In this document: piece after piece, positions 11,301 through 35,841 of the stretch
Layout: each line of letters begins with the position of its first letter
How positions within the stretch are numbered: position 1 is the stretch's first letter
Assembly: GCF_011947225.1 (NCBI RefSeq)
Contig: NZ_JAATVW010000001.1
Coordinates: 186,001 to 250,000 of the forward strand
Length of the DNA stretch: 64,000 nucleotides
DNA from: Planosporangium flavigriseum
Lineage (GTDB): Bacteria; Actinomycetota; Actinomycetes; Mycobacteriales; Micromonosporaceae
Direction: 5' to 3'
The notes under the pieces: generated by a model
Told to the model about the DNA's origin: nothing
Seen by the model: only the letters and a program-made list of their open reading frames with translations
The model's database searches: none
Translations under genes and position numbers: made by a program

Positions 11301-11875
11301 ATCATCCCCGCGTGCGCGGGGAGCACGTGGTGGCCGTCGAGGTGATACCGGCGGCCAGCGGATCATCCCCGCGTGCGCGGGGAGCACAGAACCGCAAGCT
11401 GCCCGCCACGGCGGCAGTGGGGATCATCCCCGCGTGCGCGGGGAGCACGAGCGGGTCTTCCAGGACGCCCTCAAGCCCGAGGGATCATCCCCGCGTGCGC
11501 GGGGAGCACCATGATCTGGGTGGCCAACTGCTCGGCGGCCTGGGATCATCCCCGCGTGCGCGGGGAGCACCGATACGCCGGAGGTCCCGTGACGCAGCCC
11601 GATGGATCATCCCCGCGTGCGCGGGGAGCACGACCAGTTTGGATCCGCCGGCGGGCTGGCGTTGGGATCATCCCCGCGTGCGCGGGGAGCACAGCCACTC
11701 GATGGCCTGCCCGTCGAGCAGGGCGGGATCATCCCCGCGTGCGCGGGGAGCACCGCGTGGCAACGGCACGCGTACGTCGAAGCATGGGATCATCCCCGCG
11801 TGCGCGGGGAGCACGTGATCGATCATCGCGCAGTCGGTCGAGCTGAGGGATCATCCCCGCGTGCGCGGGGAGCAC
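5316..11875 (-). CRISPR. CRISPR array 1, type I-E, about 108 repeats
   Basis: 28-bp repeats alternate with 33-bp (a few 34-bp) spacers at a 61-bp period. From first and last repeat starts (5316 and 11848) I count 108 repeats and 107 spacers. On the plus strand the repeat starts GGATCAT, has the palindromic core CCCCGCGTGCGCGGGG and ends AGCAC. The leader lies at the right end, so transcription is leftwards and the crRNA repeat is the reverse complement (starts GTGCTCCCC, ends GATGATCC). Variant repeats include the leader-distal one at 5316 (GTAC in the loop), 7085 (GCATGC), 7696 (last base T), 8064 (GGATT), 8125 (CCCCGGGTGC), 8186 (GTGTGCGG) and 9530 (GCCTGCGC). Three spacers are duplicated in tandem (7785/7846, 7907/7969, 8458/8519). 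The translated frames across the array (HPRVRGEH and SSPRARGA repeats) are artefacts of the repeats. Confidence 0.99.
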
Positions 11876-11949
11876 ACTTGTTCACCTGCGGTTCTGAAGA
11901 TCCAGATCTCGGATTTCGTTCACTTCACGCAACGCAGGCTACGCCGACC
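11876..11949 (-). promoter_or_regulatory. Leader of CRISPR array 1
   Basis: The 74 bp right of the last repeat are AT-richer than their surroundings and match the sequence beside array 2 (32274-32347) with about five mismatches. Such conservation next to both arrays identifies the leader, where transcription starts or passes and where Cas1-Cas2 insert new spacers. It carries two GTTCAC hexamers (11880 and 11918). The last 11 bases overlap the 3' end of cas2, so the cas operon reads straight into the leader. Confidence 0.85.
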
Positions 11950-12295
11950 GTCCGCGGTGCCCGAACCGGCGACGTCTAGCCGCCTTACTCCAGCCCGCTG
12001 GCATCGCCGGATTGGCCGACGGCTCGCTGGGGCGGCGCATCAAGGTCACACCATCCACGTCAACTGGAATCCAGTGATGGTCATGGGCCATGAAAGAAAG
12101 TCGCTGCTCGCCGCGTACCTCAAAGAGCATCAAGGCACGACCGGGACCGGCCATTTCAACCACCCGAGCCCACAATCGGCTGCGCACACGCACGCTGACG
12201 TGCCCGACGTACACGCCCGCGGAGATCTCCAGCAACCATTGGGTGAGGTGCCCACGTAGGCCGGGCGGGCACGCGGTGAGGATGATGACGGTCAT
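11939..12295 (-). CDS. cas2: Cas2e, spacer-acquisition subunit
   Basis: This 118-residue protein begins MTVIILTACPPGLRGHLTQW and continues WLLEISAGVYVG, the highly conserved start of type I-E Cas2. Cas2 forms the central dimer of the Cas1-Cas2 integrase that inserts prespacers at the leader-repeat junction. Its ATG overlaps the cas1 stop (TGATG at 12293-12297), giving translational coupling. The tail is basic (SKAARRRRFGHRGR). The stop codon lies inside the conserved leader of array 1, only 63 bp from the last repeat. Confidence 0.95.
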   Translation of the reverse strand: MTVIILTACPPGLRGHLTQWLLEISAGVYVGHVSVRVRSRLWARVVEMAGPGRALMLFEVRGEQRLSFMAHDHHWIPVDVDGVTLMRRPSEPSANPAMPAGWSKAARRRRFGHRGRSA

Positions 12296-13260
12296 CAGAA
12301 GTCGACGTCGCCGATGTCGGCGTAGTTGCGACCGGCAGCGACCTCGAAGCCGTTATCGTCCCAGAGGCCAAGCGAATCGCGATCCTCGAAGTCACTGTCA
12401 TCGATCATGCCACTGGGCTGTGGCTGGAGCAGCAGTGTACGGATATCGCGTACGCAACGCGCCAGGATCGCCCCGTCGTGCACGCGGTCACGTACTGTGC
12501 GGCGGGTGTCGGCGCCGATGTCGGTGGAGCCGCTGGCCGCCACGTCGAAGGCAACGGGGATGGTGATCTCCGCCTTGTACAGATCAGCGATGTCGTACAC
12601 GAAGGCGCGCTCGTGTCCGGTGTGAACGAAACCAAGGCCGGGAGCCGCCCCAAGCGCGACGATAACGGCGTGCACGATGCCGTACAGGCAGGCATGCGCG
12701 GCCGAGAGCGCTTGGTTGATGGCGTCGCCACCGGTGAAGTCCATCCGGTCATAGTCGCGGTGGCTCCAGGCGACACCGGTCCGTGCGGCGTGTTCCCGGT
12801 ACGTCCGGCGGACGCGGGCACCTTCCTTGCCGCGCAGCTGCTGCATGGTGAGGTTGGCGGTGTCCTCGCCGGGGAAGCGGATCGCGTACATGGCGCGGGC
12901 GACGGCGAACCGGCGGTCGCGGTGGCTGACCTTGGCGGCCTGCGCTATGAGCAACCGGCTGGAGGCGGCAAGCGACCGGCCGTGGGCGTAGTAGCGCACG
13001 CCCCGCTCCCCTACCCAGACGGCGGTGGCACCGTGGTCGGCGAGCAGGGCGATGGCTTGGTGGGTGATGCTGGTGCCGGGCCCAAGCAGTAGCACACCGA
13101 CCGAAGCGGCCGGGATGTGCAGCACGCCCTGATCGTCGGTGGCGGTGATGGCGTTGCTGTCCCGATGGATGACACTGCGTTCGAGGTAGAGAAAGCTGAT
13201 GCGGTCCTCGGCGCGGGCGAGATCGGCGAGCTCCGCTGGCGGTACTCCAGGGATCTTCAT
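12295..13260 (-). CDS. cas1: Cas1e, CRISPR integrase
   Basis: This 321-residue protein starts at the ATG at 13260 (AGGGG eight bases upstream); an in-frame upstream start at 13284 would overlap cas6e. It has the Cas1 fold and active site: Glu in LRGKEGARVRR, His in GFVHTGHERAF and Asp in VYDIADLYKAE, the metal-binding triad of the integrase. YLERSVIHRDSNAI near the N-terminus is typical of the type I-E branch. With Cas2 it captures and inserts new spacers. It is in the same operon as the interference genes, 16 bp after cas6e. Confidence 0.97.
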   Translation of the reverse strand: MKIPGVPPAELADLARAEDRISFLYLERSVIHRDSNAITATDDQGVLHIPAASVGVLLLGPGTSITHQAIALLADHGATAVWVGERGVRYYAHGRSLAASSRLLIAQAAKVSHRDRRFAVARAMYAIRFPGEDTANLTMQQLRGKEGARVRRTYREHAARTGVAWSHRDYDRMDFTGGDAINQALSAAHACLYGIVHAVIVALGAAPGLGFVHTGHERAFVYDIADLYKAEITIPVAFDVAASGSTDIGADTRRTVRDRVHDGAILARCVRDIRTLLLQPQPSGMIDDSDFEDRDSLGLWDDNGFEVAAGRNYADIGDVDF

Positions 13261-13276
13261 CAGTCGTCCCCTGGGT

Positions 13277-13942
13277 TCAGCCAACGGGGGCGAGCATGAG
13301 TAGGCCGCAGCCGTAGGCCTTGGCGTGCCCGATCCCGCTGGTCAGCGCTCGGCGGAAGGTATCCGAGTCGGTGACCTGAAGGATGCCGTCGTACGTGACG
13401 GTGGCGATGGTAACTGCAGCCATGCCCCGCTTGAAGGTCTGCGTCTGGCGGCGGTGCAGGCGCAGGTTGGGCTCGCCGTCCTGCTGCGTCGCCAGGGCAA
13501 AGCCGTGCCGGGGTGCGCGGTCGGCAAGCCACTTCACCTGCTCCTCTTCGCGCAGGTAAGCGAAGCGCTGGGTGTCCTTGGCCTCGGCGGTCTTGCGTCC
13601 GCTGTGGATCGGGTTGGCGGTGAGCCGAAACGCCCACTGTTGACCGGGGCGCAGTGAGCTGAGCAGCGTGTCGTAGTCACGGGTCACCCAGGTCTGGGTG
13701 GTGGGCCAGCCGGCCTGCTCGACCAGGTGGGTGAGGTCGGGCCGGCCGGGGCTGACGATGTACAGGTGGACGGTCGCGGTCGCCGCGGTGTCGAGCCGCC
13801 ACAGCGTACGGGTTCCGGCCCGCTCATGGTCCTCAGGCGCGGCGAAGGCGGCGCGGACCGCGGCGTGCATGGCCTGCGGCGAGGAGAGTAGCTTCCGCGC
13901 ACCCCGGCGCGCCGGATTGATCTGGAACCGGGTGAGGAACAT
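13277..13942 (-). CDS. cas6e: Cas6e, crRNA-processing endonuclease
   Basis: This 221-residue protein begins MFLTRFQINPARRGARKLL, the standard start of CasE/Cse3. The C-terminal glycine-rich loop GIGHAKAYGCGLLMLAP is the family's RNA-binding signature. It cleaves the repeat RNA hairpin (CCCCGCG stem here) and stays bound to the 3' hairpin in Cascade. Both arrays keep this hairpin, so one Cas6e could process both, although their repeats differ in the loop and at two flanking positions. It lies 2 bp after cas5e. Confidence 0.95.
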   Translation of the reverse strand: MFLTRFQINPARRGARKLLSSPQAMHAAVRAAFAAPEDHERAGTRTLWRLDTAATATVHLYIVSPGRPDLTHLVEQAGWPTTQTWVTRDYDTLLSSLRPGQQWAFRLTANPIHSGRKTAEAKDTQRFAYLREEEQVKWLADRAPRHGFALATQQDGEPNLRLHRRQTQTFKRGMAAVTIATVTYDGILQVTDSDTFRRALTSGIGHAKAYGCGLLMLAPVG

Positions 13943-13944
13943 GC

Positions 13945-14646
13945 TCAGCCTCCCAGCAGGCTCAACGGGTCGTGCTCGGCGATGCCGGCCCGTTCGGCGA
14001 GGTCGTTGGTGACGTCCACGTGCCGGCGCAGCACCGACCGCCAGGTGTGCTGCCGGTGCGTGGGGTCGAAGCTGACCGGTTCATCAGGCATGGTCTCGGT
14101 GACCGGCTCGCCCGGCCGGGCGTCCCGGATGATCTCCAGCCGGACCGTACGGGCCGCTCGGCGGCGGTACCACTCGGCGGCGAGCCACGGCCATGAGCTC
14201 AGCGCGTCGTCGAGGCTATCGTCGTGTACTCCGAGGCTGATCGGGCCGACGGGCGGGCACGAGCGCCGCCCGAGATAAAGCGGGAATTGCGGCCTGTTCA
14301 GTGCCTCTGCCAAGCCCAGGAGGAGTTCCCGCTCGCCGCTGACGGCGGCGAGGAAGGCTGCGTCGGACAGGTAGAAGCGGTAGGTCAGCGGGGCGCTTTC
14401 CCGCCCGTCGAGGGAGCGCGCCGTCTGGAAGTCGCGCAGGATCTGCCCGGGCTGGTCGATCCGTACTCCGAACTCGAGGCCGAGGAGTTCGGTGAGCGGT
14501 TCGCTACGACGGATGCCCTTGGCCGCGGCGAGCAGGCCGATTACGCCGCTCTTGGTTGGCGCGACCTCGGTTCCTCGACGGGCGAAGCGGCTGGACGATC
14601 CCCACGACTGCAGAGGGCCGGCCAGCTTCAACAACAACACGCTCAT
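13945..14646 (-). CDS. cas5e: Cas5e, Cascade subunit
   Basis: This is a 233-residue protein from the ATG at 14646, chosen because the family starts M-x-x-LLLKLAGPLQSWG. An in-frame ATG at 14691 would add 15 charged residues. The GPLQSWGSSSRFARRGT and PTKSGVIGLLAAA segments are the RAMP-fold core of CasD. Cas5e caps the 5' handle of the crRNA and holds Cas8e in Cascade. It follows cas7e after 51 bp and precedes cas6e by 2 bp. Confidence 0.94.
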   Translation of the reverse strand: MSVLLLKLAGPLQSWGSSSRFARRGTEVAPTKSGVIGLLAAAKGIRRSEPLTELLGLEFGVRIDQPGQILRDFQTARSLDGRESAPLTYRFYLSDAAFLAAVSGERELLLGLAEALNRPQFPLYLGRRSCPPVGPISLGVHDDSLDDALSSWPWLAAEWYRRRAARTVRLEIIRDARPGEPVTETMPDEPVSFDPTHRQHTWRSVLRRHVDVTNDLAERAGIAEHDPLSLLGG

Positions 14647-14697
14647 GTCAGCATCCCGCTCCGCTCGCTTCCGGCGTTCGGCTGCCCACATACCCGC

Positions 14698-15822
14698 TCA
14701 TGCCGGCTGCCCGAGCGCCACAGCGACCTGCTCGCCCACGCCGTTGACCAGCTCGTCGAAGGTGACCAGCTTGCCGAGGTCGGCCAGGGCCACGGTCTGC
14801 TCGCCGACCTGGGTGACCCAGGCACCGACCGGCCGCTCGCCGTACGCGTTCTCGACGGCCACGGTGTGCTTGGCCAGGGCGGCGGCTGCCAGTTCGACCC
14901 GGCCGGCGGCGTGCGTCTCGCGGATGGGCGTCTCGAACGCGCCGACCAGGTTGATCGGCTGGGTGTCCCGCACCCGCACCATCACCGCGTCGGGCAGGGT
15001 GCGGTGGGCGAACGTGTTCTGCTTCCCGGTCGGCATACTGCGCACGAACGCGACGAGGAACGCCTCGACGGCGGCGCGGGTGGCGGCCGCGTCGCCGAGC
15101 GTACGATGCAGCGCGTCCACGTCGACCGTTGCGTACCGGTACAGGGTGGAGGAGTTGAACTCGACGGTGCCGATCATGCCGGCGCCCGTCTCCGCGGCGT
15201 CAGCCTTGCGGTCGTCCACGGCGGTGAAGTAGTCGAACTCGTTGTCTACGGCGTGCACGCTGATCGCGTGCGACACCTGGCACGCGGCGTCGACGTTGAT
15301 GTCGGTCATGTCGGCCACCATCCGGCCGAACATGGCGATGTCCACCGAGTGCTCGGTGTTCGCCAGTGCCTTGAACCGGGCCTTGTCCAGGCTGCTACCC
15401 GCACGCGAGGCGTCCAGCGCGGCGGCCGCGATGCTGTCCAGCTGCCGGTGACTCAGAAACAGCAGGTAGCCGGACTCGACGTCCTTCGCCTCACCTTTCT
15501 TCTTGTCTGCCTTGGCCAGCCCGGACGCAGCGAACGCCTCGGCGGCGAGCGCCGACGCGGCCTCGTCGGACAGGCTCGGGTCGAGCGCCTTGATCCGCGC
15601 AGCGAGCGCCTCACCCACCCGCTTGGTCCGCACACCGAGCTGGGACCTGTCGAGCACGTCGGCGAAGGCCAGCCGAACCGCTCGCTTCCAGGCCTGGCTG
15701 GATACGCGAGCGCGGCGGGCGCCGCCGTAGAGCGCGGTCTTCGGCGAGCCGGTGTCGTCGCGGTTGAGGTTGCTCGGCGGCACGGTCTGCAGCGCGTAGA
15801 CGTCGATGATGGTGCGGCTCAT
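14698..15822 (-). CDS. cas7e: Cas7e, Cascade backbone subunit
   Basis: This 374-residue protein begins MSRTIIDVYALQTVPPSNLN and has DDTGSPKTALYGGARRARVS, the hallmark N-terminus of Cse4/CasC. Six copies of this subunit normally line the crRNA in type I-E Cascade and form the thumb that flips every sixth base out of pairing. The ATG overlaps the stop of cas11 by four bases (ATGA at 15819-15822), so the two are translationally coupled. Confidence 0.96.
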   Translation of the reverse strand: MSRTIIDVYALQTVPPSNLNRDDTGSPKTALYGGARRARVSSQAWKRAVRLAFADVLDRSQLGVRTKRVGEALAARIKALDPSLSDEAASALAAEAFAASGLAKADKKKGEAKDVESGYLLFLSHRQLDSIAAAALDASRAGSSLDKARFKALANTEHSVDIAMFGRMVADMTDINVDAACQVSHAISVHAVDNEFDYFTAVDDRKADAAETGAGMIGTVEFNSSTLYRYATVDVDALHRTLGDAAATRAAVEAFLVAFVRSMPTGKQNTFAHRTLPDAVMVRVRDTQPINLVGAFETPIRETHAAGRVELAAAALAKHTVAVENAYGERPVGAWVTQVGEQTVALADLGKLVTFDELVNGVGEQVAVALGQPA

Positions 15823-16493
15823 GATGCGTTCTCCTCCTGCGTGTCGGTGACGAGGGCGTCGGTGTCGGTACTGGGCCGGCTGCGGAAGAACTCCCGTCCC
15901 CAGGTGGCCTGCATCTGGGCGCGACCGCCGGGCCAGCGCAAGGTCCGCAGATCGTCGGCGAGCAGCCCGTAGTCGAGCGGGATCTGGTGCTCGCGCAGCA
16001 TGGTGATCAGGCTGCGCAGGTGGTAGATGCTCTCGTGGTAGGTGCTGGCCGTGCCGAGCGCGGCGAAGCGGCGACGCACGCCGTCCGGACCGCTGGACGC
16101 GCGTACCAGACCAGCCATGGCCCAGCCGAGTCCTCGCCCGTCCACGTGCATCCGCTCCCGGCGGGACTGCTGGTGCAGCGCGTACAGGGTCACCGCGTCG
16201 TGCACCGCGTACTCGGTGTCGGTGGCCTGGGTGTCGTCGGCCGGCCGGTAGCCCAGAAGGTGCTCCGGGACCTGCAGGTAGCGTTCCAGCGTGTAGTCGA
16301 AGCCGGGGTCGCGGCCGATGCCACGGCGCAGTCGGGCAAGCGCGCTGACCGCTTCCGGGTCCGGCACGTCGCGCAGCAGTCGCTGCTGCAGGCCGCTGAC
16401 GGTCCGGGCGACATGGTCGCCCAACTCGCCACGACGCCGTCCCCGCGGCGTACGTGCCGCGGATTCCGACTGGCTGATCTCGACCGTGGTCAT
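15819..16493 (-). CDS. cas11: Cas11e (Cse2), Cascade small subunit
   Basis: This 224-residue helical protein resembles actinobacterial Cse2/CasB in size and in motifs such as RLRRGIGRDPGFDYTLERYL and GLGWAMAGLVRASSG, with an Arg-rich lobe (RRRFAALGTAS). Two copies usually form the belly of Cascade and stabilise the displaced DNA strand. It overlaps cas8e and cas7e by ATGA junctions on both sides, which also supports the start at 16493. Confidence 0.92.
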   Translation of the reverse strand: MTTVEISQSESAARTPRGRRRGELGDHVARTVSGLQQRLLRDVPDPEAVSALARLRRGIGRDPGFDYTLERYLQVPEHLLGYRPADDTQATDTEYAVHDAVTLYALHQQSRRERMHVDGRGLGWAMAGLVRASSGPDGVRRRFAALGTASTYHESIYHLRSLITMLREHQIPLDYGLLADDLRTLRWPGGRAQMQATWGREFFRSRPSTDTDALVTDTQEENAS

Positions 16494-18151
16494 GCTGGTA
16501 CCTCCTGCGTCTTAGCTACGGGGTCGGCGGCCATCGGTAGCGCCTTGGCGAGGCCGGCCCGGAACCAAACCTCGGCCTGCGAGCTGGAGTAGTGCACTTC
16601 CCGTCCGTTGCGGTCGACGCCGAGTCGGCCCACCCAGGCGGCCGGGCCGGCCTCGGCGACTAAGTCATTGCCGAGCCGCACCACCGCTCGCCACACCAGG
16701 CGCTGCCACCAAGCGCGCTCAGCCGCCGGGTCGCTGGTCGGACCGAGGCGGGCCAGCCAGTCACGGAAGGCGCGATCCAGCCGGGCGTAGCCGCGTTCGG
16801 CCGCACGGTCGGCCTCGCCGCTGTCGCCGTCGCGGCTGCCGGCGGCGCGTGCCAGGTTCGTGGCGAGCCGGCGCAGGACCCCGACCGCGCCCTCCGCATC
16901 GGCGGCCGCGTCGACGGCCGTGGTGCGCAGCGGCGACTGGTCGACCAGCAGCAGGACGTTCATGGTCAGCGCGTCGCCGAACACTTCGTCGATGACCGCC
17001 TGCTGAGTGCCGTAGGTAACGCTGGTGGCGCGCGGCCGGACCTGGAAGTCCGGCTCGACCACGCCGGTGACGGTCAGCCGGGCCAGCCATTGCAGCACCA
17101 TCGGCGACAACCGTTGGGGCGGCTCGCTGCCGGATGGCGGTGCCAGTGGCAGCAGGGTCTGCAGGCCGCGCCACAGTGCCCGGGTGTGGTCGTGCGGTCG
17201 GGGCAGATAGATCGGGCTCCTCTTCTGTTCGCGTTCGCGCGGCGCGCTGCGCCCCCAGACACTCATCGGCTCCAACAGGTGCCGGTCCTGCCACTCGAGT
17301 TTGTCGCCATTGGAGATCATGGCGCCGGTGATGCCGCTGGTATCACCGAACAGGCGGATCCGCCGCGACTGCCAGGTGTAGAGACTGAGCAGGCCGTACG
17401 GGCCCCGCGTCTCGTCGGGCTCCTCGGTGGCCGTCTGCGGCTCCCGCTCCCATACCGGCAGGTCCCGCTCGTCGGCGCGCTGCCAGCCTGGCGCGATCGG
17501 CACCAGGTTGAGCAGGAGGCTCTCCAGCAGACTGGCACCCTCCAGGTGGACGCCGCCCAACGCGCCAAGTGAGCCGACACCGATCGGATAACCTCGCCCG
17601 CCCTTGACCCGCGGGTCGCCGACCGCCCCGGTCTTGATGCCTGAAGGGTCGTACGCCTGGCAGTGCACCAGCCAGCGGGCCGCCTCGGCAGGCGAGATCG
17701 ACTCCATCCCCCGCCCGGCGCGGGTGGTCAGGAAAGGCATGCCGTTGGGCACATCGGCGATCAGCCGCTCGAGCCCGAACGAGTTGTCCTTGCCGGCGCG
17801 CAGATCGGCGACCTGATAGAACGGGTGTCTCGGGTGGAGCAGGTCGAACCGGTCACGGAACGCGGCGAGGTAGTCGGTGACCTCCGGCAGCGGCAGCTGC
17901 CGGGCTCGCCAGAGCGCCTGCCAGGCGGCCTCCCCCGGTGGCCCGTCGGTGGCCCGGTGCAGGATCGCCAGCGCCAGCCGCAGGATCGCGAACGTCTGCG
18001 TGGGCAGTTCGCAGGCGATCATGCGCAGGTCGTCGGCCTGTTCGAACAGTCCTAGCAGGGAGACCTCGCGCCGCTGGCCTGCGGCGTCCAGCACCGGGAT
18101 CCACGCCTCATCCACCAGCGAGAATTCCGGCGGGCGCGGTGAGCCGGTCAT
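16490..18151 (-). CDS. cas8e: Cas8e (Cse1), PAM-sensing large subunit of Cascade
   Basis: This is a 553-residue protein starting at the ATG at 18151, behind a near-perfect AAGGAGGTG ribosome binding site. The ORF extends 67 codons upstream, but that part overlaps cas3 and looks non-coding. FSLVDEAWIPVLDAAGQRREVSL is trimmed here to its recognisable core LVDEAWIPVL, the standard start of Cse1/CasA. The protein recognises the PAM and recruits Cas3. It begins 28 bp after the cas3 stop. Confidence 0.94.
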   Translation of the reverse strand: MTGSPRPPEFSLVDEAWIPVLDAAGQRREVSLLGLFEQADDLRMIACELPTQTFAILRLALAILHRATDGPPGEAAWQALWRARQLPLPEVTDYLAAFRDRFDLLHPRHPFYQVADLRAGKDNSFGLERLIADVPNGMPFLTTRAGRGMESISPAEAARWLVHCQAYDPSGIKTGAVGDPRVKGGRGYPIGVGSLGALGGVHLEGASLLESLLLNLVPIAPGWQRADERDLPVWEREPQTATEEPDETRGPYGLLSLYTWQSRRIRLFGDTSGITGAMISNGDKLEWQDRHLLEPMSVWGRSAPREREQKRSPIYLPRPHDHTRALWRGLQTLLPLAPPSGSEPPQRLSPMVLQWLARLTVTGVVEPDFQVRPRATSVTYGTQQAVIDEVFGDALTMNVLLLVDQSPLRTTAVDAAADAEGAVGVLRRLATNLARAAGSRDGDSGEADRAAERGYARLDRAFRDWLARLGPTSDPAAERAWWQRLVWRAVVRLGNDLVAEAGPAAWVGRLGVDRNGREVHYSSSQAEVWFRAGLAKALPMAADPVAKTQEVPA

Positions 18152-18179
18152 CGGCACCACCTCCTTTGCGATTGAGGAC

Positions 18180-21023
18180 TCAGGCGGCCGCGCGGGTGAC
18201 GCGTAGCCCATCGTCCTGGTCGTAGTGCAGGTCGAAACCGGCCACCGTGGCACGCCCGTCGTCGTCGAGGTCGAGCACGAGTTCGCCGGTGAGCCAGTGG
18301 CTGTCCTGCCAGGCGCTGACATCGGTGCGCCGCTCCAACTCGGCGATGACATCGTCGATCACGTCGGAGGCGGTCATCATCCGCGGCAGCGGCAGGGTGC
18401 AGCGGGCGATCTGCCGGGGCAGCGGCCAGCGTGGGACGCTGCCGGTCGGTACGGCTACCCCACCCCCGTCGATCCATGGGGGTAGAACCAGGCCATCCGG
18501 CGTCCGTACCAGCAAGAGGACCTCGAGCGATTCGGCGTCGGTGTCGCGGACGTGGCCCAGCGCGGCACGGTCGTCGGCGTTGCCGACGCCGCCGGACAGC
18601 CAGCCGATCAGCGGCACGCCGGGTTCGGCCACGCCGGCCAGCCGGAAGCCGTCGGCCTTCAGTTCCTTGGCGGCGAACTCGTCGCGCTGCCGCGCCTCCC
18701 CCTCGGCCATCGCCGGCTGCCACGACGTGGGGCCGACCGCTGCACTGCCGTAGGCGGACTGAGTGAGCGGCGCGATGTCGGCAGGCAGCCGCAGTGGTGT
18801 GCCGGTCAGGTGCGGCAGCAGCACGGCGGCGCTGCGCAGCAGCATGGACGGCTGGTAGACGCGTCGGGAGCCGGAGACCGGGTGCGGGGGCTCCTCGGTC
18901 CAGTCAGCTCCGGTGATCCAGCAGGTCGGCGTCGCGAGCCGGGTCGGGCGGTCGCTGCGAAGGTGCCGGTGCAGCCGGCCGATGCGCTGCAGTACCAGGT
19001 CGACGGGGGCGAGGTCGGTGACGAGCAGATCGAAGTCGATGTCGAGGGACTGCTCGGCGACCTGGCTTGCCACCACGACGTGCCGGTGTGGACGGTTGGC
19101 GCTGCCGGGAGGCCCGAATGTCTCCCGGAGCCAGGTGTCCTTCGCGGCTCGGTCGACCGCCATGAACCGGGAGTGCGCCACCGACACCGGAATGTCCGGC
19201 CCGAGCGCTGCCCGCAGCGTGGCCGCCGTCTCCTGCACCCGCGCCACGGTGTTGCGGACCACCAGCGCGCAGCCACCGTCGGCCAACTGGTCGCGTAACA
19301 GCTCCACCAACGCCGGCAGTTCGTCGTCCAGGCGCCGCAACCGCACCTCGACGCCACGGCCGGAGTCGGCGCAGCTGATCGCGGTGGCGCTGCGTTCGGC
19401 GCCGGACACGGTGACCAGTGGGTACCGCAGGTCACTCCGGAGTGAGGCGTACGGGTCGACCGTCGGTTTGCCCCGGTCACGCCAGGTGCGCGGGGGTGGA
19501 GGACCGAGGCGGCCGTTGTCGTACGCGTCCATCAGTTCGGCCCGGCGGTACGCGGGTAGCGTAGCCGAGAGCAGGACCACCGGCACCCCGTAGGCGCCGA
19601 GCCACTCCAGCGCCCGGTCCAGGAACCGTCCCATGTAGACGTCGTAGGCGTGTGCCTCGTCGATGACGACGACCTTGCCTGCGAGCCCGAGGTGGCGCAG
19701 CACCAGGTGCTTTCCGCGCAGCGCCGCGAACAACAGCTGGTCGATGGTGCCCACGACGAAGCTCGACAATAGCGTCCGCTTCGGCCCGGCCAGCCACGCG
19801 TGTACGCCGATGTCGGCGCCGCCCGCGTCCTCGGCGATGCCACTCGGCAGCGACGTGGCCCGCAGCCGGTCGTACTCGGGGTTGAGCGCCGCCTTGCCGT
19901 GCGCCAGCCGCACGTCGCGGTCGCCCCGGCCGACCTGCGCGTCGGGTAGCCGGCGCAGCCAGGGCAGCATCCGGCCGAACATGGCGTCGCTGGTGGCCCG
20001 GGTGGGCAGCGCGAGATAGCAGCCGGACGCTGCGGTACGGCGGGCGAGGATCTCCACAGCCGCCAGGGCCGCCTCGGTCTTGCCTTCCCCCATCGCCGCT
20101 TCGACGATCATCATCCCAGGCGCGAGCATGGTGGCGGCAAGCTCCGCGACGGCACGCTGCACCGGGCGTGGCGCCGCGCCGGCGGGGAGCTCGAATCGCG
20201 CCGCGAACAGCTCGTCCACGCTTTCCGGCGGCCCGGCCGGCAGCCAGGGTACGGGCAGGTCGACCAACTCCCAGCCGACGCTGAGCCGATCGGCGTCCGT
20301 ACTATCCAGCGTGTACGGGAAGAACTCCTCGTTGCTAGCGATCCAGTCGGCCATGATCACCAGGCCGGTGAGAGCCGCCTGCGCCGGTTGCGACAGCGGC
20401 GCACCGCTCCACGCGGCGAGCCGGTCACCGGCACCGGATCGCTCGGTCATCCAGGTCAACAGTTCCAGCTGGACCTGCTGCCACGCCTCGTCGCCAAGCA
20501 GGTAGGGGCGGATCTGCACATCCCGGAGGCTCTCGTCGGTCGGTGGAGCGCCGTGGTGCCCGCCGACGACCACTGCGTACGGGTGCGGATCAACCCAGCC
20601 CTGTTCCTGCAGCCACTGAGCGAGGATGACGTGGCCGGCGGTAGCGTGCGGGGCATAGCGCCGGTCGGCCCGAATCAGCTCGCGGTCGAATGCCAGCCCG
20701 TGGTCACGCATCCGCTCCGCCAGCACGTACGCCTGGATCGCGAAGGCAGGGGTGGCCTTGCCGATGTCGTGCACTCCGGCCAGCCAGATCGCCAGCGTAC
20801 GGCCGTCGGCGTCACCACCGGGCAGCTCGTCGGCGATACGCCGGCGCACCGCCGGGCTCAGCCAGTGGTCCCACAGCCGCCCGGCCACATCGACGGAGTC
20901 GGCCAGGTGCCGCCACAGCGGCAGCCAGCCCACCGGCGACGTGCCCTTGCGGTCGGTCTTGCCCCAGACCGACCGCGCCGCGTCGCCCAGCGTCGGCCCG
21001 TCGGCCACGAGGCGGGTACTCAT
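18180..21023 (-). CDS. cas3: Cas3, HD nuclease-helicase
   Basis: This is a 947-residue protein from the ATG at 21023 (MSTRLVADGPTLGDAARSVW). The HD nuclease has AGVHDIGKATPAF near residue 84 and a downstream HHGAPP. The superfamily 2 helicase carries Walker A MGEGKTEAAL near 311, DEAHAYD near 453 and SATLP after it; the C-terminal helicase lobe has QVAEQSLDIDFDLLVTDLAP. Recruited by Cascade, it unwinds and degrades target DNA. Its ATG overlaps the stop of the upstream helicase gene (ATGA at 21020-21023), so it appears to be translated as the second gene of that transcript rather than from its own promoter. A fossil copy of the region around Walker A sits at 27948-28150. Confidence 0.96.
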   Translation of the reverse strand: MSTRLVADGPTLGDAARSVWGKTDRKGTSPVGWLPLWRHLADSVDVAGRLWDHWLSPAVRRRIADELPGGDADGRTLAIWLAGVHDIGKATPAFAIQAYVLAERMRDHGLAFDRELIRADRRYAPHATAGHVILAQWLQEQGWVDPHPYAVVVGGHHGAPPTDESLRDVQIRPYLLGDEAWQQVQLELLTWMTERSGAGDRLAAWSGAPLSQPAQAALTGLVIMADWIASNEEFFPYTLDSTDADRLSVGWELVDLPVPWLPAGPPESVDELFAARFELPAGAAPRPVQRAVAELAATMLAPGMMIVEAAMGEGKTEAALAAVEILARRTAASGCYLALPTRATSDAMFGRMLPWLRRLPDAQVGRGDRDVRLAHGKAALNPEYDRLRATSLPSGIAEDAGGADIGVHAWLAGPKRTLLSSFVVGTIDQLLFAALRGKHLVLRHLGLAGKVVVIDEAHAYDVYMGRFLDRALEWLGAYGVPVVLLSATLPAYRRAELMDAYDNGRLGPPPPRTWRDRGKPTVDPYASLRSDLRYPLVTVSGAERSATAISCADSGRGVEVRLRRLDDELPALVELLRDQLADGGCALVVRNTVARVQETAATLRAALGPDIPVSVAHSRFMAVDRAAKDTWLRETFGPPGSANRPHRHVVVASQVAEQSLDIDFDLLVTDLAPVDLVLQRIGRLHRHLRSDRPTRLATPTCWITGADWTEEPPHPVSGSRRVYQPSMLLRSAAVLLPHLTGTPLRLPADIAPLTQSAYGSAAVGPTSWQPAMAEGEARQRDEFAAKELKADGFRLAGVAEPGVPLIGWLSGGVGNADDRAALGHVRDTDAESLEVLLLVRTPDGLVLPPWIDGGGVAVPTGSVPRWPLPRQIARCTLPLPRMMTASDVIDDVIAELERRTDVSAWQDSHWLTGELVLDLDDDGRATVAGFDLHYDQDDGLRVTRAAA

Positions 21024-23125
21024 GGCGACGCCGGCAACAGGGTGCTGGGCGTGCCGCTGTGCGACAGGTAGAGCACGTCGCGGGCACGGGTGAGGGCGAC
21101 GAACAGCAGGCAGCGCTCGCGCTGCAGATCCTGCCGGTGGGCGTGCGGGTCCTCGGCCGCCGACGTCACCGCGTTGGGCGCGGGCAGTACGCCAGCGTCC
21201 AGCCCGACGACCGCGAGGCACTGAAATTCCAGCCCCTTCATGCGATGCATGGTGGCGACCCGTACCCCGTCGATACCGCGCCGGTCGTCGGCGACGGGGA
21301 TGTAGGCGTCGGTTAACGCCGCCGTGACAGCCATTACCAGCTGCCCGGTGCGAGCGGCGACACCGATCGCGTGCGGCTCGACGCCCTGTTCCAGCCAGGT
21401 GCCCACACGCTCGATCAGGGCCTCAAACTCGTTGTCTCTGCTGGTGTGCGCGGCCACCACCGGGGCGCCGCCGCGAGTAACCGAACGGTAGCCGCGCAGC
21501 GTGTCGGCCTCGTCGTCCAGCCCGACGGCGGCATCACCGGCCAGCACCTTCACCGACAGGTCCAGGATCTCGTGGGTGGTGCGGTAGTTGACGGTGAGCC
21601 GGCGGGTCCGGCCCCGCACATGAATGCCGAGCTGGGCCAGCGACACGTGGCTGTCGTAGATGCGCTGGTACGGGTCGGCCAGCAGGAACATGTCATTCGG
21701 CCCGGGTGCGACAAGCGCGCGCAGCAGCCGCCACTGCGCCGGGTGCAGGTCCTGTCCCTCGTCCACGATCACATGTTGGTACGGGGCGGGAGAGCGTCGC
21801 GCGATCTCGGCTGCCTCGTCGGCGAGCTGGGTGTGGGTGCGCCGGCGCTGCTTGGCCAGCTGGTTGACGACCCCCTCGATCGCGACCCACACCTGTTCGC
21901 GCTGGGCCCCGCGGAGCCCTTCGCCGCGGCCCTTGCGCGGGGCGTCCCGGTACGCCTCGACGCTGGTCAGCTGCTGCGCCAGCACCACCTGCTCCCACTC
22001 CCGCTGGAGGAAGGCACCGCTGAGCGTGGTGACCTGGCCGGCCCGGTTCAGGTATGTCGGCCCGGTCTTCGCGGCCGCCTCCCACAGCCGGTCCATGATG
22101 TCGTCGTCGGCAATGGTGACCTTCCGGCCGCCACGCGTGACAATCTCGTACGCCAGCTTGTCGACGCTGATCACGTCGATGCGCGACCTCACCTTCGGGT
22201 CGCCGGTGAGCCGGTACAGCTGCTTGCTGAGCGCATCGGCGAGTGCACGGGTGTAGGTCGTGAGCAGTACCTTTGAGCCGTCGTCCGGCAGCCGCCCGGC
22301 GAGGAACACCGCCCGGTGCAGGCCGGTGACCGTCTTGCCGGTCCCGGCGCTGCCGGTGACCAGCGCGGGACCGTTGTAGACCGCCCGGTAGGCGACGTCG
22401 CGCTGGGTCGGGTGCAGGAAGGTGCGCCAGAGGTCGAACGGGTGGGCGAGGATGGCGGCCAGCTCCACCGGGCCCGAGACGAACGCGATCCGCTCCGGCG
22501 TGCGGCGCGCCGCCGCCAGCAAGTCGTCGGTGTCCACACCGGACACGATCCGCTCGGCCAGCTCCTGCCAGACCTCCTCTACGGTCAACCCGCTGGCCAG
22601 CCCGCGCAGGACATCGAGTTGAACCTCAGGCAACCGGCCGCCCAGGCTCTCCAACTGCTCGTCGGTGCTGATCAGCCGCAGTAGCGGCACCAGGTCCCTG
22701 TCCACGCCGAGCCGCACCAGGTCGGCGGTGGAGGACTTGTCGAACAGCCCAGTGGTGGCCGGTGCTGCCTGCGTGACGCGTGCGAACTCCTCGATACCGA
22801 CCTGGTCACGTACCTCCAGCACGCCGAGGGCCTGGTTGACAGTGAACCGCCGGCTCACCGCGAAGGCGATGGCGTCATCGTGCGGCAGAACGTTGAGCAG
22901 GGCGTATCGCTGCTCGCCGAGGGCAAGCACAACCCCTCGATGGAACTGGTCAATGCGGATGGTGCGGATGTGCGGATCGCGGGCGCTGGCCAGCTTCTCC
23001 AGGTGCAGGCCCGCATGGGTGTGCTCGGCGAACTTGCCGATCGCGGCGTCGACAGCACGCTGCACTGGGCGCTGCAACCTGGCATAGGCAGGAAGAAAAC
23101 CACGATCGATGGCCAGCTCGGCCAC
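21020..23125 (-). CDS. UvrD/Rep-like helicase with RelE-like N-terminal domain, translationally coupled to cas3
   Basis: This is a 701-residue protein if the GTG at 23125 is used: it has a strong GAAGGGG site five bases upstream, and homologues I recall begin M-A-x-L-A. The ORF stays open to 23323, but the upstream starts lack such a site. The first ~85 residues (AYARLQRPVQRAVDAAIGKF, RTIRIDQFHRGVVLAL, LLNVLPHDDA) look like the RelE/ParE toxin fold. The rest is superfamily 1: GSAGTGKT near 258, IVDEGQDLH near 453, LTVNYRTTHEIL, TMHRMKGLEFQ and FVALTRARDVLYL. It is predicted to be an ATP-dependent 3'-5' DNA helicase. This fusion occurs in many actinobacteria outside CRISPR loci, so it is not a standard cas gene, yet its stop overlaps the cas3 start. 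Whether it serves Cas3, adaptation or is unrelated is unknown. Confidence 0.82.
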   Translation of the reverse strand: MAELAIDRGFLPAYARLQRPVQRAVDAAIGKFAEHTHAGLHLEKLASARDPHIRTIRIDQFHRGVVLALGEQRYALLNVLPHDDAIAFAVSRRFTVNQALGVLEVRDQVGIEEFARVTQAAPATTGLFDKSSTADLVRLGVDRDLVPLLRLISTDEQLESLGGRLPEVQLDVLRGLASGLTVEEVWQELAERIVSGVDTDDLLAAARRTPERIAFVSGPVELAAILAHPFDLWRTFLHPTQRDVAYRAVYNGPALVTGSAGTGKTVTGLHRAVFLAGRLPDDGSKVLLTTYTRALADALSKQLYRLTGDPKVRSRIDVISVDKLAYEIVTRGGRKVTIADDDIMDRLWEAAAKTGPTYLNRAGQVTTLSGAFLQREWEQVVLAQQLTSVEAYRDAPRKGRGEGLRGAQREQVWVAIEGVVNQLAKQRRRTHTQLADEAAEIARRSPAPYQHVIVDEGQDLHPAQWRLLRALVAPGPNDMFLLADPYQRIYDSHVSLAQLGIHVRGRTRRLTVNYRTTHEILDLSVKVLAGDAAVGLDDEADTLRGYRSVTRGGAPVVAAHTSRDNEFEALIERVGTWLEQGVEPHAIGVAARTGQLVMAVTAALTDAYIPVADDRRGIDGVRVATMHRMKGLEFQCLAVVGLDAGVLPAPNAVTSAAEDPHAHRQDLQRERCLLFVALTRARDVLYLSHSGTPSTLLPASP

Positions 23126-23280
23126 ATCATCCCCTTCCCCATCGTCAGCACCCTGGCCCGACCGAGGACGCGAAGAGTGCACCATAGCGAGCCCCGCCAT
23201 GAGTGAAACAGCTCTAATCGCGCAAGCATCGAAGGCCACTCGGCCGAGGCCCACTCCCTCGTATCGATGAGCATTCCAAC

Positions 23281-23291
23281 ATATTGTGAAC
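23281..23291 (-). promoter_or_regulatory. ATATTGTGAAC element upstream of the helicase-cas operon
   Basis: The 11 bases read GTTCACAATAT on the minus strand, within an AT-rich stretch (about 23275-23320) that is striking in this GC-rich DNA. The same 11 bases occur at 25628-25638 in front of the methylase gene. The element lies in the 272-bp divergent region between the helicase (start 23125) and the kinase (start 23398), so it could belong to a promoter or operator for either gene. Confidence 0.45.
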
Positions 23292-23397
23292 GCTGTTTGC
23301 AAGGAAATTTTCGAACGCTCCATTCACCAACGCGGGACCCAGTGGCTCGACTGTCCGGAAAGGCCCGTGCCGCCCGGCGTCCGACTAGGCTGGCCTC

Positions 23398-24669
23398 GTG
23401 TTGGCGGACGCGCTCCTCAAAGGCCGGTACGCGATAGGCCGGCTACCTTTGGCGCACAACGGGATGGGCGAGGTCTGGACAGCGCAGGACAAGCACCTCG
23501 ACCGCGCCGTCATCGTCAAATTCGTCAACGGCTCCATGGTGGACGCGGAGCTGATGCGACGGTTTCGGCGCGAGGCACTGCTGACCGCCCGACTGGATCA
23601 CCCCGGCGTACCGGCGGTCTACGATCTCGACGAGCACGACGGCCGCCCCTACCTCGTCCTCCAGAAGGTCGACGGGATCAACCTGGCAGATCTGATCGCA
23701 GAGCAAGGCCCACTGTCGATCGCCTGGGTGGCCGCCATCGGTGCACAGATCAGCAGCGTGCTGGTCGCCGCCCGGCGGATCGGCCTGGTGCACCGCGACA
23801 TCAAGCCGAGCAACGTCATGCTGGACGCGAGTGGCGCGGTGAAGGTGTTGGATTTCGGGCTGGCCGTCATTCGCGACGACGACCGCTACTCGCGGATCAC
23901 CCAGACCGGACAGAGCCTCGGCACTATCGGCTACATGGCGCCGGAGCAGATCCTCGGCGAACCCACCGATCACCGCACCGACCTCTACGGGCTGGGCGGC
24001 ACGCTGTTCGACCTACTCACCGGCCATCCACCATTCGACGGTGACACCACCGCGACCACGTTGCACCACCAACTGGCCGATCCCCCGCCGCGCCCCGCCC
24101 TGCTGCGTCCGGAGATCCCGAGCGCGCTCGACCAACTGGTCCACGCACTGCTGGCGATCCGCCCGGAGAACCGGCCTGCCAGCGCCACTGAGGTGTATGC
24201 GACGCTCGCCCCGCTCGCCCAGGACCTGCCACCGATCCCCGGGGTGGTCGACGAGGGCGGCGACACGGTGCGGGCGTACGCCGCGATAGTCGGACAGGCG
24301 CCGCGGCCGTCCAACGACAACGCGGCGCCGGATCCCCCACCTCGGCGGCCGGACCTCGACGTGGACCAGGCTTCGGAGCAGGCGGAGCAGCTGGTTGCCG
24401 ACGGCAAGTTCCGTGCCGCCGCTCGACTATGGCGGCGCCTCGCGGAGCATCACGCGCGACAGCACGGCGACACCCATCCGCTGGTGTTCGACTGCCGGCT
24501 GCGCGCTGCTCGCGCCCACCTGCCGCTCGGCGAACACGACCGGGCGCTGCGCCAACTCAACCAGCTGCTGCACGACCGGATCCGGGCGGACGGGCCGGAG
24601 CACCCAGCAGTGCTGGAACTGCGCCAGGAGATCGCGCGACTGAGCGAGAAAGGTGCCTCATCACACTGA
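23398..24669 (+). CDS. Soluble Ser/Thr protein kinase with C-terminal TPR-like helices
   Basis: This 423-residue protein starts at a GTG. The kinase domain covers about residues 5-270, with a Lys in VIVKFV, VHRDIKPSNVML near 134, the DFG of VLDFGLAV near 153 and GYMAPEQI. A Pro-rich linker leads to about 100 residues of paired helices (EQAEQLVADGKFRAAARLWR; ALRQLNQLL) of tetratricopeptide type. Unlike the PknB group it has no transmembrane segment or PASTA repeats, so it is cytosolic. All catalytic residues I checked are present. It is divergent from the helicase-cas operon, and its 3' end overlaps the convergent gene at 24661 by nine bases. The substrate is unknown; nearby candidates are the helicase and the methylase. 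Confidence 0.88.
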   Translation: MLADALLKGRYAIGRLPLAHNGMGEVWTAQDKHLDRAVIVKFVNGSMVDAELMRRFRREALLTARLDHPGVPAVYDLDEHDGRPYLVLQKVDGINLADLIAEQGPLSIAWVAAIGAQISSVLVAARRIGLVHRDIKPSNVMLDASGAVKVLDFGLAVIRDDDRYSRITQTGQSLGTIGYMAPEQILGEPTDHRTDLYGLGGTLFDLLTGHPPFDGDTTATTLHHQLADPPPRPALLRPEIPSALDQLVHALLAIRPENRPASATEVYATLAPLAQDLPPIPGVVDEGGDTVRAYAAIVGQAPRPSNDNAAPDPPPRRPDLDVDQASEQAEQLVADGKFRAAARLWRRLAEHHARQHGDTHPLVFDCRLRAARAHLPLGEHDRALRQLNQLLHDRIRADGPEHPAVLELRQEIARLSEKGASSH

Positions 24670-25350: not shown

Positions 25351-25396
25351 CGGTATTCATGGTCCTCCTTCGATCGTCGCTATGGGACGGATGCGG

Positions 25397-25662: not shown

Positions 25663-27753
25663 GTGACAACGGAGCGGAGTGCAGCGATCGGGGACGCCAC
25701 CCTGACTGCCAGCGGGATCGCGCAACTGGCCAACGTCGGCAGGGCGGCTGTGAGCAACTGGCGTCGTCGGTACGCTGACTTCCCCGCGCCGGTCGGCGGA
25801 ACGCCAACCAGCCCATTGTTCGACGCGCGCGAAGTGGAGCAGTGGCTACGCCGACAGGGCAAGCTGCACCAGGTCGGCATCGAGCAGTGGGCATGGCGAC
25901 ACATCGAGAGCTACCAGCCCGCAGCGCAGATCGGAGACGCCCTCGCCATCTCCGGCGCCTACCTGCTCGTCCGCTCCGATCAGCCCGTCGCCCGGAGCAA
26001 CGCCCTGCTTACCCCGAAACAACTGGTCACTCGGCTGCGCGCGCTCGACCGCCGCTTGGCCGACCTGGTCGGCGGTGTGCTGCCGGCGCAGTGGACGCCA
26101 CAGCTCACCACTGTGCTGGGCATGGTCGACCAGCTCAGTCAGGAGCAGGACCCGGAGGACGCCTTCGAGTACCTACACAGTCAGTACGTAATCTCAGCGC
26201 ACTCGATGTCCGGCCTCGCCGGCACTCCCGACAACGTCGCCGAGGTGATGCTGGCCCTCGCGGGCTCCGGCGCGAGCACGTTCGACTTCACCTGCGGCAC
26301 CGGGTCGATCCTGCGCATGGCTGCTGACCGGGCGCTGCACAATGGCGTGGCAACACACTGCTACGCACAGGAGATCAAGCCGCAGTACGCGCTGATCACC
26401 CTGCTGCGCCTGTGGTTCGTGCACCGCCGCGCCCAGCGCGCCGGTTTGACGGCGGAACCGCCGATCATCCACGTCGGCGACAGCCTCCTTGCCGACGCGT
26501 TCCCCGATCTGCGGGCCGATGTCGTCGTGGCGAACTTCCCGTTCGGCATCCACGACTGGGGCCACGACCAGCTCGCGTACGACCCGCGCTGGACCTACGG
26601 CCTGCCCCCGCGTACCGAGCCCGAGCTCGCCTGGGTGCAGCACGCCCTGGCCCACCTCTCCCCCGGCGGCACCGCCGTTGTGCTCATGCCCCCGGCCGCC
26701 GCGCTGCGCCCGGCGGGCCGCCGCATCCGCGCCGAACTGGTGCGCCGCGGCGCGCTGCGTGCGGTCATCGCCCTGCCCGCCGGTCTGATGCCGCCAACCG
26801 GCATCGGGCTGCACATCTGGGTACTCACCCAGCCCGATCCACAGCAGCCGCCCGCTGGCCGTCTGCTGTTCGCCGATACCACCGCATCAGAAACCAGCAC
26901 GCTCGCCGACGTCGTTGGGAACGCATGGCGTGTCTATCTGTCCGGTAAGGACGGTGAAGCATCCGGCATCCACCGCTCCATATCCGCCATCGACGTGCTC
27001 AACGACCAGGTCGACTTAACGCCGCAGCGCTACCTGCCGCAAGCTGGCACGCTCGCCGCCGATCCGGCCCAGACCATCGTCAGGATCAGCGACTTCGACC
27101 GACTCATCGACGAGGTACGGCGCGGCCTACCCAGAGTGCAGAAGGGGACGACGGCAGCACTGAGCACGGCACCGCAGGCCAGCCTGGCCGACTTGATCCG
27201 GGCGGGCAGCATGTCCGTGCAGCGCACGGTCTCCCGTACTCATGCGAACAGAGCGATGGCCAGCGGGGCCGTGCCGGCCTCCTCCGACCTCCCCAGCGGA
27301 TCAGTGACCGGCACGACCACTCGCGCCGGAGACGACGATCCCGTACCACGCGTACGCGCCAACGACATCCTCATCCCGGTCATGGGCCGCGAGATCGTCG
27401 CCCGGGTGGCCACCCCCGAGCAGATCGGCACCGAGCTAGAGCCCAACGTGCAACTCGTACGCGTCGACCCGGTCCGGTTCGACCCATGGTTCGTCGCCGG
27501 TGTCCTCTCCTACTCGGACAACCTGCGCGTTGCAGGTCGGACGTCCAGCTCCACCAATGGCACTCTGCGTATAGATATCAAGCGCCTCACCATCCCTGTT
27601 CTGCCGCTGGACCAGCAGCAGACGTACGGACAAGCCTTCCGTCGGCTCGCCGAATTCCGCGCCGGACTTGACGAGGCCACCGCGATGGGCACCGCCCTCG
27701 CCCGCGAGATACGCGACGGACTCACCGCAGGTACCCTCACCGTCTCTTCCTGA
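25663..27753 (+). CDS. N6-adenine DNA methylase-like protein with N-terminal DNA-binding domain
   Basis: This 696-residue protein starts at a GTG. Residues about 17-65 (ASGIAQLANVGRAAVSNWRR and LFDAREVEQWL) form a MerR/excisionase-type helix-turn-helix. The methylase core has motif I FDFTCGTGSILRMA near 207 and motif IV VVANFPFGIHDWG near 289, then the HsdM-like DPRWTYGLPP, WVQHALAHLSPGG and RAVIALPAGL. The usual motif IV is NPPF/NPPY; here the second residue is Phe (NFPF), so activity is uncertain. The C-terminus (VRANDILIPVMG; IPVLPLDQQQTYGQAF; GLTAGTL) resembles half of a HsdS specificity subunit. No restriction subunit is nearby. It could be a solitary methylase, a regulator built on a methylase fold, or part of a defence module with the kinase and helicase. 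Confidence 0.8.
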   Translation: MTTERSAAIGDATLTASGIAQLANVGRAAVSNWRRRYADFPAPVGGTPTSPLFDAREVEQWLRRQGKLHQVGIEQWAWRHIESYQPAAQIGDALAISGAYLLVRSDQPVARSNALLTPKQLVTRLRALDRRLADLVGGVLPAQWTPQLTTVLGMVDQLSQEQDPEDAFEYLHSQYVISAHSMSGLAGTPDNVAEVMLALAGSGASTFDFTCGTGSILRMAADRALHNGVATHCYAQEIKPQYALITLLRLWFVHRRAQRAGLTAEPPIIHVGDSLLADAFPDLRADVVVANFPFGIHDWGHDQLAYDPRWTYGLPPRTEPELAWVQHALAHLSPGGTAVVLMPPAAALRPAGRRIRAELVRRGALRAVIALPAGLMPPTGIGLHIWVLTQPDPQQPPAGRLLFADTTASETSTLADVVGNAWRVYLSGKDGEASGIHRSISAIDVLNDQVDLTPQRYLPQAGTLAADPAQTIVRISDFDRLIDEVRRGLPRVQKGTTAALSTAPQASLADLIRAGSMSVQRTVSRTHANRAMASGAVPASSDLPSGSVTGTTTRAGDDDPVPRVRANDILIPVMGREIVARVATPEQIGTELEPNVQLVRVDPVRFDPWFVAGVLSYSDNLRVAGRTSSSTNGTLRIDIKRLTIPVLPLDQQQTYGQAFRRLAEFRAGLDEATAMGTALAREIRDGLTAGTLTVSS

Positions 27754-27947
27754 TCGAACTACTCCACGAGGAACCATCGCACGCCCTGGAGCGCCCAGCG
27801 CTGGACTTAACGATGGTGTTGTGAAGCTGGGCAAAGCGTGCTGGCACAACCGCGCGCAGTCCGCATTCGGGCGAGCCCTGCCATAAGCCAAACCCACATC
27901 GCGGGCACCACAATCGGTATCCGGCACCGGCAACCGCCCCGGCCAGA

Positions 27948-28150
27948 TTAGGGCCGTCGGAACATCACGTTACTGGCCGCATGCGTCGGCGACGCAATGC
28001 AACAACCGCCTACCCTGCCACGGGCAGCGAACACTTCGACCGCCGCCAGGCGGCCTTGCTCTCCCCCATCGGCGCCTCGGTGATCAGCAGCCCCGGCGCC
28101 AGCATCCGGCAGCCCTTGTTCACCACCGCCGTCTGCACAGGCTGGGACTG
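27948..28150 (-). pseudogene. cas3: Decayed fragment of a second cas3
   Basis: In one minus-strand frame 28141 to about 28055 reads PVQTAVVNKGCRMLAPGLL followed by ITEAPMGESK. This matches Cas3 of this window (PVQRAVAELAATMLAPGMM, IVEAAMGEGK) across the Walker A region. After a deletion of about seven bases the neighbouring frame continues LAAVEVFAARGRVGGCCIAS and SPTHAASNVMFRR, matching LAAVEILARRTAASGCYLAL and LPTRATSDAMFGR. Motif order and spacing are kept over about 65 codons. The Walker A is damaged (GESK) and both ends are missing: the upstream part ends at the degenerate first repeat of array 2 (28185), the downstream part near the methylase 3' side. This is a non-functional relic of another type I-E cas3. 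Confidence 0.85.
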
Positions 28151-28184
28151 CGCATTGCCTCTCATCATGGACCCGCGGCGCCTG

Positions 28185-32273
<4,089 letters not shown>

Positions 32274-32347
32274 ACTTGTTCACCTGCGGTTCTGAAGATC
32301 CAACTCTCGGATTTCGTTCACTTCATTCAACACAGGCTACGCCGACC
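32274..32347 (-). promoter_or_regulatory. Leader of CRISPR array 2
   Basis: This 74-bp sequence next to the last repeat matches the array 1 leader (11876-11949) with about five mismatches, then similarity stops at the point where array 1 runs on into cas2. It keeps both GTTCAC hexamers. From 32348 to 32546 I see no gene. Confidence 0.85.
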
Positions 32348-34161: not shown

Positions 34162-34180
34162 CAGTTCTCCTCGTCGAGGA

Positions 34181-35754: not shown

Positions 35755-35841
35755 TGTTAGATCACCTCCGGTGGCATGACCGTCCACAAGCAGTGAAACG
35801 GGGACGGCACCCGCTTAGTAGGCTTGAGTAGCACCGGACGT

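Follow-up and report, generated by a model that had tools for sequence, protein, structure and literature searches.

The window (the whole stretch of 64,000 nucleotides of DNA analysed here) carries a type I-E operon with an intact cas3, placed between two CRISPR arrays, and also a second, decayed piece of cas3 that sits between array 2 and a block of methyltransferase, kinase and UvrD-like helicase genes. This raises the question of where the second cas3 came from and what became of the operon to which it would have belonged. The features of the locus are as follows.

5316..11875, minus strand: CRISPR array 1, 108 repeats found, repeat GTGCTCCCCGCGCACGCGGGGATGATCC
11939..12295, minus strand: cas2 (Cas2e)
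12295..18352, minus strand: cse1-cse2-cas7-cas5-cas6e-cas1
18180..21023, minus strand: intact cas3 (Cas3e), in use today
21020..23323, minus strand: UvrD-like helicase, its stop overlapping the cas3 start by 4 nt (ATGA)
23398..24669, plus strand: Ser/Thr protein kinase (PD-T4-6-like), with a weak TPR match
25663..27753, plus strand: HsdM-like N6 DNA methyltransferase, its C-terminus weakly matching a specificity subunit, the edge gene of the present cassette
27826..28165, minus strand: type I-E cas3 fossil from chained homology, ~115 codons spanning Walker A, with two frameshifts and Walker A as MGESK
28186..28209, minus strand: first, degenerate repeat of array 2, identified by eye
28241..32273, minus strand: CRISPR array 2, repeat CTGCTCCCCGCGTACGCGGGGATGGTCC (67 found), with the old end facing the fossil
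32274..32347, minus strand: leader of array 2, sharing 93% identity with the array 1 leader across 74 nt

Extent and decay of the fossil

A tblastn search with the local Cas3 (ORF 18180-21221, minus strand) against 900 nt around the fossil returned three collinear blocks on the minus strand, with a summed E of 5e-16, that match residues 349-460 of the Cas3 ORF. Alignment of 47 Cas3 proteins likewise gave three collinear blocks, in three different frames and without in-frame stops.

28055..28165, minus strand: block 1, the Walker A region (LLITEAPMGESK), from alignment to the 47 Cas3 proteins and translation
27954..28070, minus strand: block 2 (RLAAVEVFAARG...MFRR), from the same alignment and translation
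27826..27951, minus strand: block 3 (LIWPGRLPVPD...HALPS), from tblastn, the 47 Cas3 proteins and translation

The original prediction had placed a Cas3 match at 27948-28150, on the strand of the working cas3, with about 65 codons around Walker A interrupted by a single frameshift. Position and strand are borne out, and blocks 1 and 2 account for the predicted extent; the match nevertheless continues through block 3 for ~120 bp further left, beyond the stretch first noticed, to ~115 codons, and two frameshifts rather than one separate the blocks. Their translations run AQSQPVQ...LLITEAPMGESK, RLAAVE...MFRR and LIWPGR...HALPS. The minus-strand ORF 27948-28247 (99 aa) has no Pfam match at E 0.001, and its single frame covers block 2 only.

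Given the high G+C content of this DNA, it is possible to imagine that the resemblance arose by chance: single blocks in other gaps score up to 35.8 bits by chance, and of 285 background pieces taken from elsewhere in the window, with the cas3 and fossil regions excluded, the highest-scoring one chains to 55.0 bits. The fossil, however, chains to 123.7 bits with its best partner, the cas3 of genome G182, compared with a maximum of 45.1 bits in 500 dinucleotide-preserving shuffles of the same segment, and chance is so improbable an explanation that it was ruled out.

What remains corresponds to the N-terminal helicase part of Cas3e; neither the HD nuclease domain nor the C-terminal helicase part was found in the fossil, which is confined to Cas3 ORF residues ~349-460. 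An intact Walker A motif has the form GxGK(T/S). As predicted, the translation reads MGESK where MGEGK is needed, and for this reason the fossil, judged from its sequence, is a relic and not a working Cas3. About 73 bp lie between its end and the methyltransferase stop, and ~20 bp between its start and array 2's first degenerate repeat, the latter within the limit of about 40 bp given earlier. Differences from the cas3 of G223 amount to 0.34, 0.26 and 0.46 at the first, second and third codon positions, compared with 0.23, 0.16 and 0.43 between the intact genes of G223 and G028. The excess of first- and second-position change is as expected for a gene freed from selection; it is only suggestive, given that other intact pairs come close, among them G223 and G131 with 0.31, 0.31 and 0.56.

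Lineage of the fossil

Two lineages of type I-E cas3, named plain and cassette here (both the names and the distinction are our own), were found among 354 genomes of the Micromonosporaceae; few candidates were scored per genome, and hit counts are lower bounds. The cassette lineage comprises the cas3 of the window and 28 whole genes in family relatives with 70-84% protein identity to it, and the plain lineage comprises 18 genes that are 50-62% identical to it. In the four genomes searched in the genus of the window, the only cas3 match was in the window's own genome.

Several comparisons ally the fossil with the plain lineage. Its five top DNA matches in the 354 family genomes, with two candidates scored per genome, are all plain (G223, 68% over 267 nt, followed by G028, G182, G320 and G310). 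Over the whole region the ten genes highest in DNA identity out of 45 are plain, led by G223 at 64.7%, and the window's own cas3 stands at 59.2%; cassette rows G178 and G214, in which the motif was not found, were dropped from this comparison, and G144, G082 and G018, whose cas3 is split or partial, were left out of both it and the tree. The top nine of 47 phmmer scores against the fossil are plain. Of the strict lineage-diagnostic residues, three are of the plain kind, none of the cassette kind and four of neither, and a looser count by frequency gives seven for plain and three for cassette. A tree of 48 rows separates the fossil and the 18 plain rows from the 29 cassette rows (100/100); the fossil has a very long end branch there, and its exact position among the plain rows is weakly supported (76/59). 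A sample of 397 genomes of the order, from which most of the nearest plain genomes are missing, again gives plain genes as the best matches to the fossil protein (G116 at 92.1 bits and G308 at 82.3), followed by the window's own cas3 (81.5 bits) and, with the fossil's own pieces excluded, the best of any other family (70.7 bits).

Other results are less favourable to this placement. AU tests do not reject the fossil with the cassette lineage or inside it (p 0.17 and 0.23 respectively for protein, 0.31 for DNA); eight of the 18 plain genes rank among or below the cassette genes in DNA identity to the fossil; plain G344, G346 and G117 have the lowest phmmer scores of all; and the intact gene nearest to the fossil shares only ~54% protein identity with it in the tree alignment. 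Raw, unchained block sums over the 47 Cas3 proteins put two cassette rows first through an extra non-collinear block, which chaining removes. On balance the sequence comparisons favour a fossil that resembles the plain cas3 of the Micromonosporaceae more than the local cas3, with a cassette placement still unrejected by the AU tests.

One conceivable origin would be duplication of part of the local cas3 followed by decay in place, since strand and locus are shared, and pairing of the fossil with the window's own cas3 is unrejected at 0.05 (p 0.058 for protein, 0.090 for DNA). Several plain cas3 genes are nonetheless better than the local one in DNA, in protein score and in diagnostic residues, and this origin is considered very unlikely. 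That the fossil is not a recent copy of the local cas3 is supported by its 59.2% DNA identity to that gene, given that family genes of the local kind share 70-84% protein identity. The earlier suggestion of a separate lineage rather than a recent duplication thus holds as regards recency and the top matches, which belong to another I-E lineage, while the AU tests keep the local lineage among the candidates.

Position of the fossil in the light of related loci

In plain loci the cas3 usually adjoins an array: a repeat lies at most 1.5 kb upstream of cas3 in 11 of the 15 loci scored (G308-G310, with flipped cas3, were left out), at 256-376 bp in ten of them and at 809 bp in G134. In cassette loci the methyltransferase, kinase and UvrD-like helicase intervene between array and cas3, with the exceptions of G078, where the methyltransferase is elsewhere, and G262, which has no such UvrD; kinase matches below 45% were filtered out of this comparison. 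Of 30 cassette loci, the window included, 24 have a repeat no more than 1.5 kb away from the cassette edge. Given that repeats adjoin both the plain cas3 and the cassette edge, the fossil lies where a plain cas3 would stand had the cassette been inserted beside array 2.

The block itself (21020-27753) is joined to a type I-E operon in ~30 genomes of the family. A UvrD at least 64% identical to that of the window occurs in 30 other family genomes, all of which have cassette cas genes; among them G315 has lost cas3, G082 has a broken cas3 and G178 has the UvrD on another contig. The cassette locus of G315 (L189) keeps the methyltransferase, kinase, UvrD and cse1 to cas6, with arrays on both sides and no cas3, cas1 or cas2 in 18 kb. 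Possibly the block is an undescribed accessory set of type I-E: no paper describing it by title was found in a search that lay outside most subscription journals, the 2025 classification (PMC12669027) makes no mention of kinase, UvrD or methyltransferase, and in the available part of PMC10910872 a kinase and UvrD are named only with other systems.

Given the fossil, the place it occupies and the two locus types observed in relatives, we infer that a resident plain type I-E operon, its cas3 adjoining array 2, would once have occupied the slot. A distinct but related I-E operon, with methyltransferase, kinase and UvrD-like helicase, may then have entered between the two arrays and replaced it in place, perhaps via recombination in the flanking arrays or leaders. 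Array 2 would have been retained and the old cas3 reduced to the piece around Walker A, which would have gone on to decay by frameshifts and substitutions. That the fossil is the scar of a plain operon displaced in this manner by the cassette operon is judged probable. It is consistent with the chain score far above controls, the plain top matches, the diagnostic residues, the tree, the positions of repeats in relatives, the distribution of the exact array repeats and the scars in G234, G164 and G150 described below. Against it stand the orientation of array 2, the AU tests, the low rank of some plain genes, the distance to the nearest intact gene (only ~54%), the 93% likeness of the leaders, the cassette identity of the window's cas1 and the state of 28 cassette relatives, in whose methyltransferase-array gaps no convincing cas3 relic was found. 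That gap search, which covered the top three matches above 28 bits, gave only single matches at chance level, the best at 35.8 bits. A weak match in G262 was inspected in three frames and left as chance. After the methyltransferase stop there is no conserved cassette-edge sequence common with the window.

Arrays and their orientation

Array 2 runs in the direction of the operon, with its old end towards the fossil, an orientation that is rare: it is seen in four of the 24 cassette loci with repeats there, the window included, and in one of 11 plain loci. The remaining ten of these 11 plain loci have a divergent array, and only in G134 does the array run in the same direction as cas3. Because the old end of array 2 faces the fossil, displacement of a plain operon requires either an inversion or a G134-like start to be assumed. 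The 5' part of cas3, if inverted beyond leader 2, was not found in 32272-36000.

Given this orientation, it is possible that the present operon once had a second complete I-E operon in tandem with it, whose cas3 came after array 2 and pointed the same way, and which was later deleted. Such an arrangement accounts for the same-direction array, as in plain G134, and genomes with two different I-E-like cas3 genes exist (for example G223, G309 and G196, the last with more I-E genes around the second). However, a search of 32272-36000, beyond array 2 and leader 2, by tblastn with the Cas proteins of the window and the 47 Cas3 proteins found no cas relic, and none of the 354 genomes has both a plain and a cassette cas3, a weak argument given that only 1 to 2 would be expected from ~32 cassette and 19 plain genomes. 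A deleted tandem operon is therefore regarded as rather unlikely, although it comes next to displacement. The idea that array 2 was once beside another I-E operon, now lost, agrees with the usual place of plain cas3 next to an array; coexistence of that operon with the present one is the part less well borne out. Relatives instead suggest that one operon was displaced by another in the same slot.

Alternatively, array 2 and the cas3 fragment could have been imported together as a piece of a dead plain locus. Lone plain cas3 fragments do occur, in G283 and G270, neither of which has other cas genes in 20 kb, and that of G283 (L066:10015-10430) stops close to Walker A, where it meets a single CRISPR repeat; no repeat was found near the fragment of G270. 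The near identity of the leaders of arrays 2 and 1, however, points to a locus shared for a long time and makes a joint import decidedly unlikely. The 93% likeness of the two leaders does not suggest two separate array histories. In the plain and cassette loci compared, the window aside, plain G309 and G308 alone have the exact repeat of array 2, and cassette G336 and G110 alone that of array 1.

When the spacers of both arrays were compared with the window and the loci of relatives, the best 25 matches contained, in plain cas genes, only exact stretches of 17-18 nt, which are read as chance. Of the array-1 spacer at 9863, 27 nt are found unchanged in G024 (L118 and L168) and 25 nt within an array of G196 (L096); different genera have perhaps met the same target.

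Comparable scars in other genomes

The relics given here are examples and not a systematic count. In front of a divergent type I-E operon, G234 retains an array, a leader and, from a plain cas3, the initial ~60 codons (78% identical to that of G182). The ~700 nt that lead from the array up to the start of this cas3 can be aligned with plain loci at 71%, and the NCBIfam cut-offs for type I-E are passed by all four Cascade proteins found in the divergent operon. G164 has, after a divergent operon, a methyltransferase of cassette type that is frameshifted and 5'-truncated, its start being lost, with an array beyond it. G150 provides a weaker scar: 49 residues of a cassette-type methyltransferase lie beside a divergent operon, and no array was found in 20 kb. 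A cas3 relic beside three degenerate repeats in G288 (L228:9195-9648) is nearest to another I-E-like lineage and was excluded from the plain count.

These loci raise the broader possibility that the slot between the arrays of Micromonosporaceae I-E loci acts as a revolving door, in which plain, cassette and divergent operons repeatedly displaced one another and relics at array edges record the order. The swaps would be from plain to cassette in the window, from plain to divergent in G234 and from cassette to divergent in G164 and perhaps G150. This generalisation is offered tentatively, with somewhat more doubt than confidence.

Adaptation genes

Trees were made for cas3, cas6, cas7, cas1 and cas2; those other than cas3 are quick trees of proteins taken from the best tblastn pieces. 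Cassette cas3 sequences make up one side of a starred branch, as do those of cas6; for cas7 the corresponding branch is unstarred, with a support of 94. In the cas1 tree, 16 cassette rows including the window form one set (SH-aLRT 97 in the quick tree), and ten other cassette rows fall with five plain rows of Micromonospora type (88), nine of the ten within a starred set (96). The cas2 tree needs three changes and is less clear than that of cas1. These trees suggest that, within the family, recombination between cassette and plain loci took place close to the cas6-cas1 border; the window itself has the cassette cas1. Retention of resident adaptation genes, which may have taken place in the ten of 26 cassette rows of the cas1 tree, was thus dropped for the window, given that its cas1 groups with the cassette cas1.

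Relation to known systems

The fossil is of a kind already published, in which cas3 relics lie by arrays and effector modules are exchanged. In Salmonella, cas3 remnants are described at the end of CRISPR1 (PMC3356390); in the portion of that account available, the cas set has been lost and the remnant is 5', whereas the window has another I-E operon in the locus and its remnant is internal. Salmonella also has pseudogenes of cas3 and cse1 next to an Ecoli-type cas set that looks intact (PMC2886076), where, as here, a relic of the old cas3 adjoins a whole set; the excerpted text concerns another phylum and has no methyltransferase-kinase-UvrD block in its description. Its authors propose that arrays outlive cas genes and serve as integration hot spots. 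In situ exchange of effector modules at a kept array has been reviewed (PMC6452270). As far as that review could be consulted, the likeness is that an array is retained and effector genes are swapped for another variant of the same subtype: in the window, array 2 lies ~20 bp from the relic of the old module and a different module occupies the slot. The difference is that the cas1 of the window is of the incoming lineage and the resident cas1-cas2 was not kept. Remnants and truncations of cas3 also occur near Cas8-HNH and Cas5-HNH systems (PMC10910872), again a decayed cas3 near a type I locus; in the passages seen, cas3 is thought to fade there as another nuclease takes over, whereas the window has a whole cas3 of another lineage.

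If relics at array edges reveal an earlier CRISPR operon, the direction of module swaps could be read from single genomes and not only from trees. Should the pattern hold in a full survey, the frequency of effector-module exchange beneath a persisting spacer memory would become traceable, and one would have to ask whether spacers acquired by one operon serve the next.

Three minor observations concern the window itself. Two adjacent identical spacers lie near the leader end of array 2 (32090-32184). Three more spacer sequences of arrays 1 and 2 are present twice. The long minus-strand ORF at 41192-46078 contains about a dozen 234-bp repeats.
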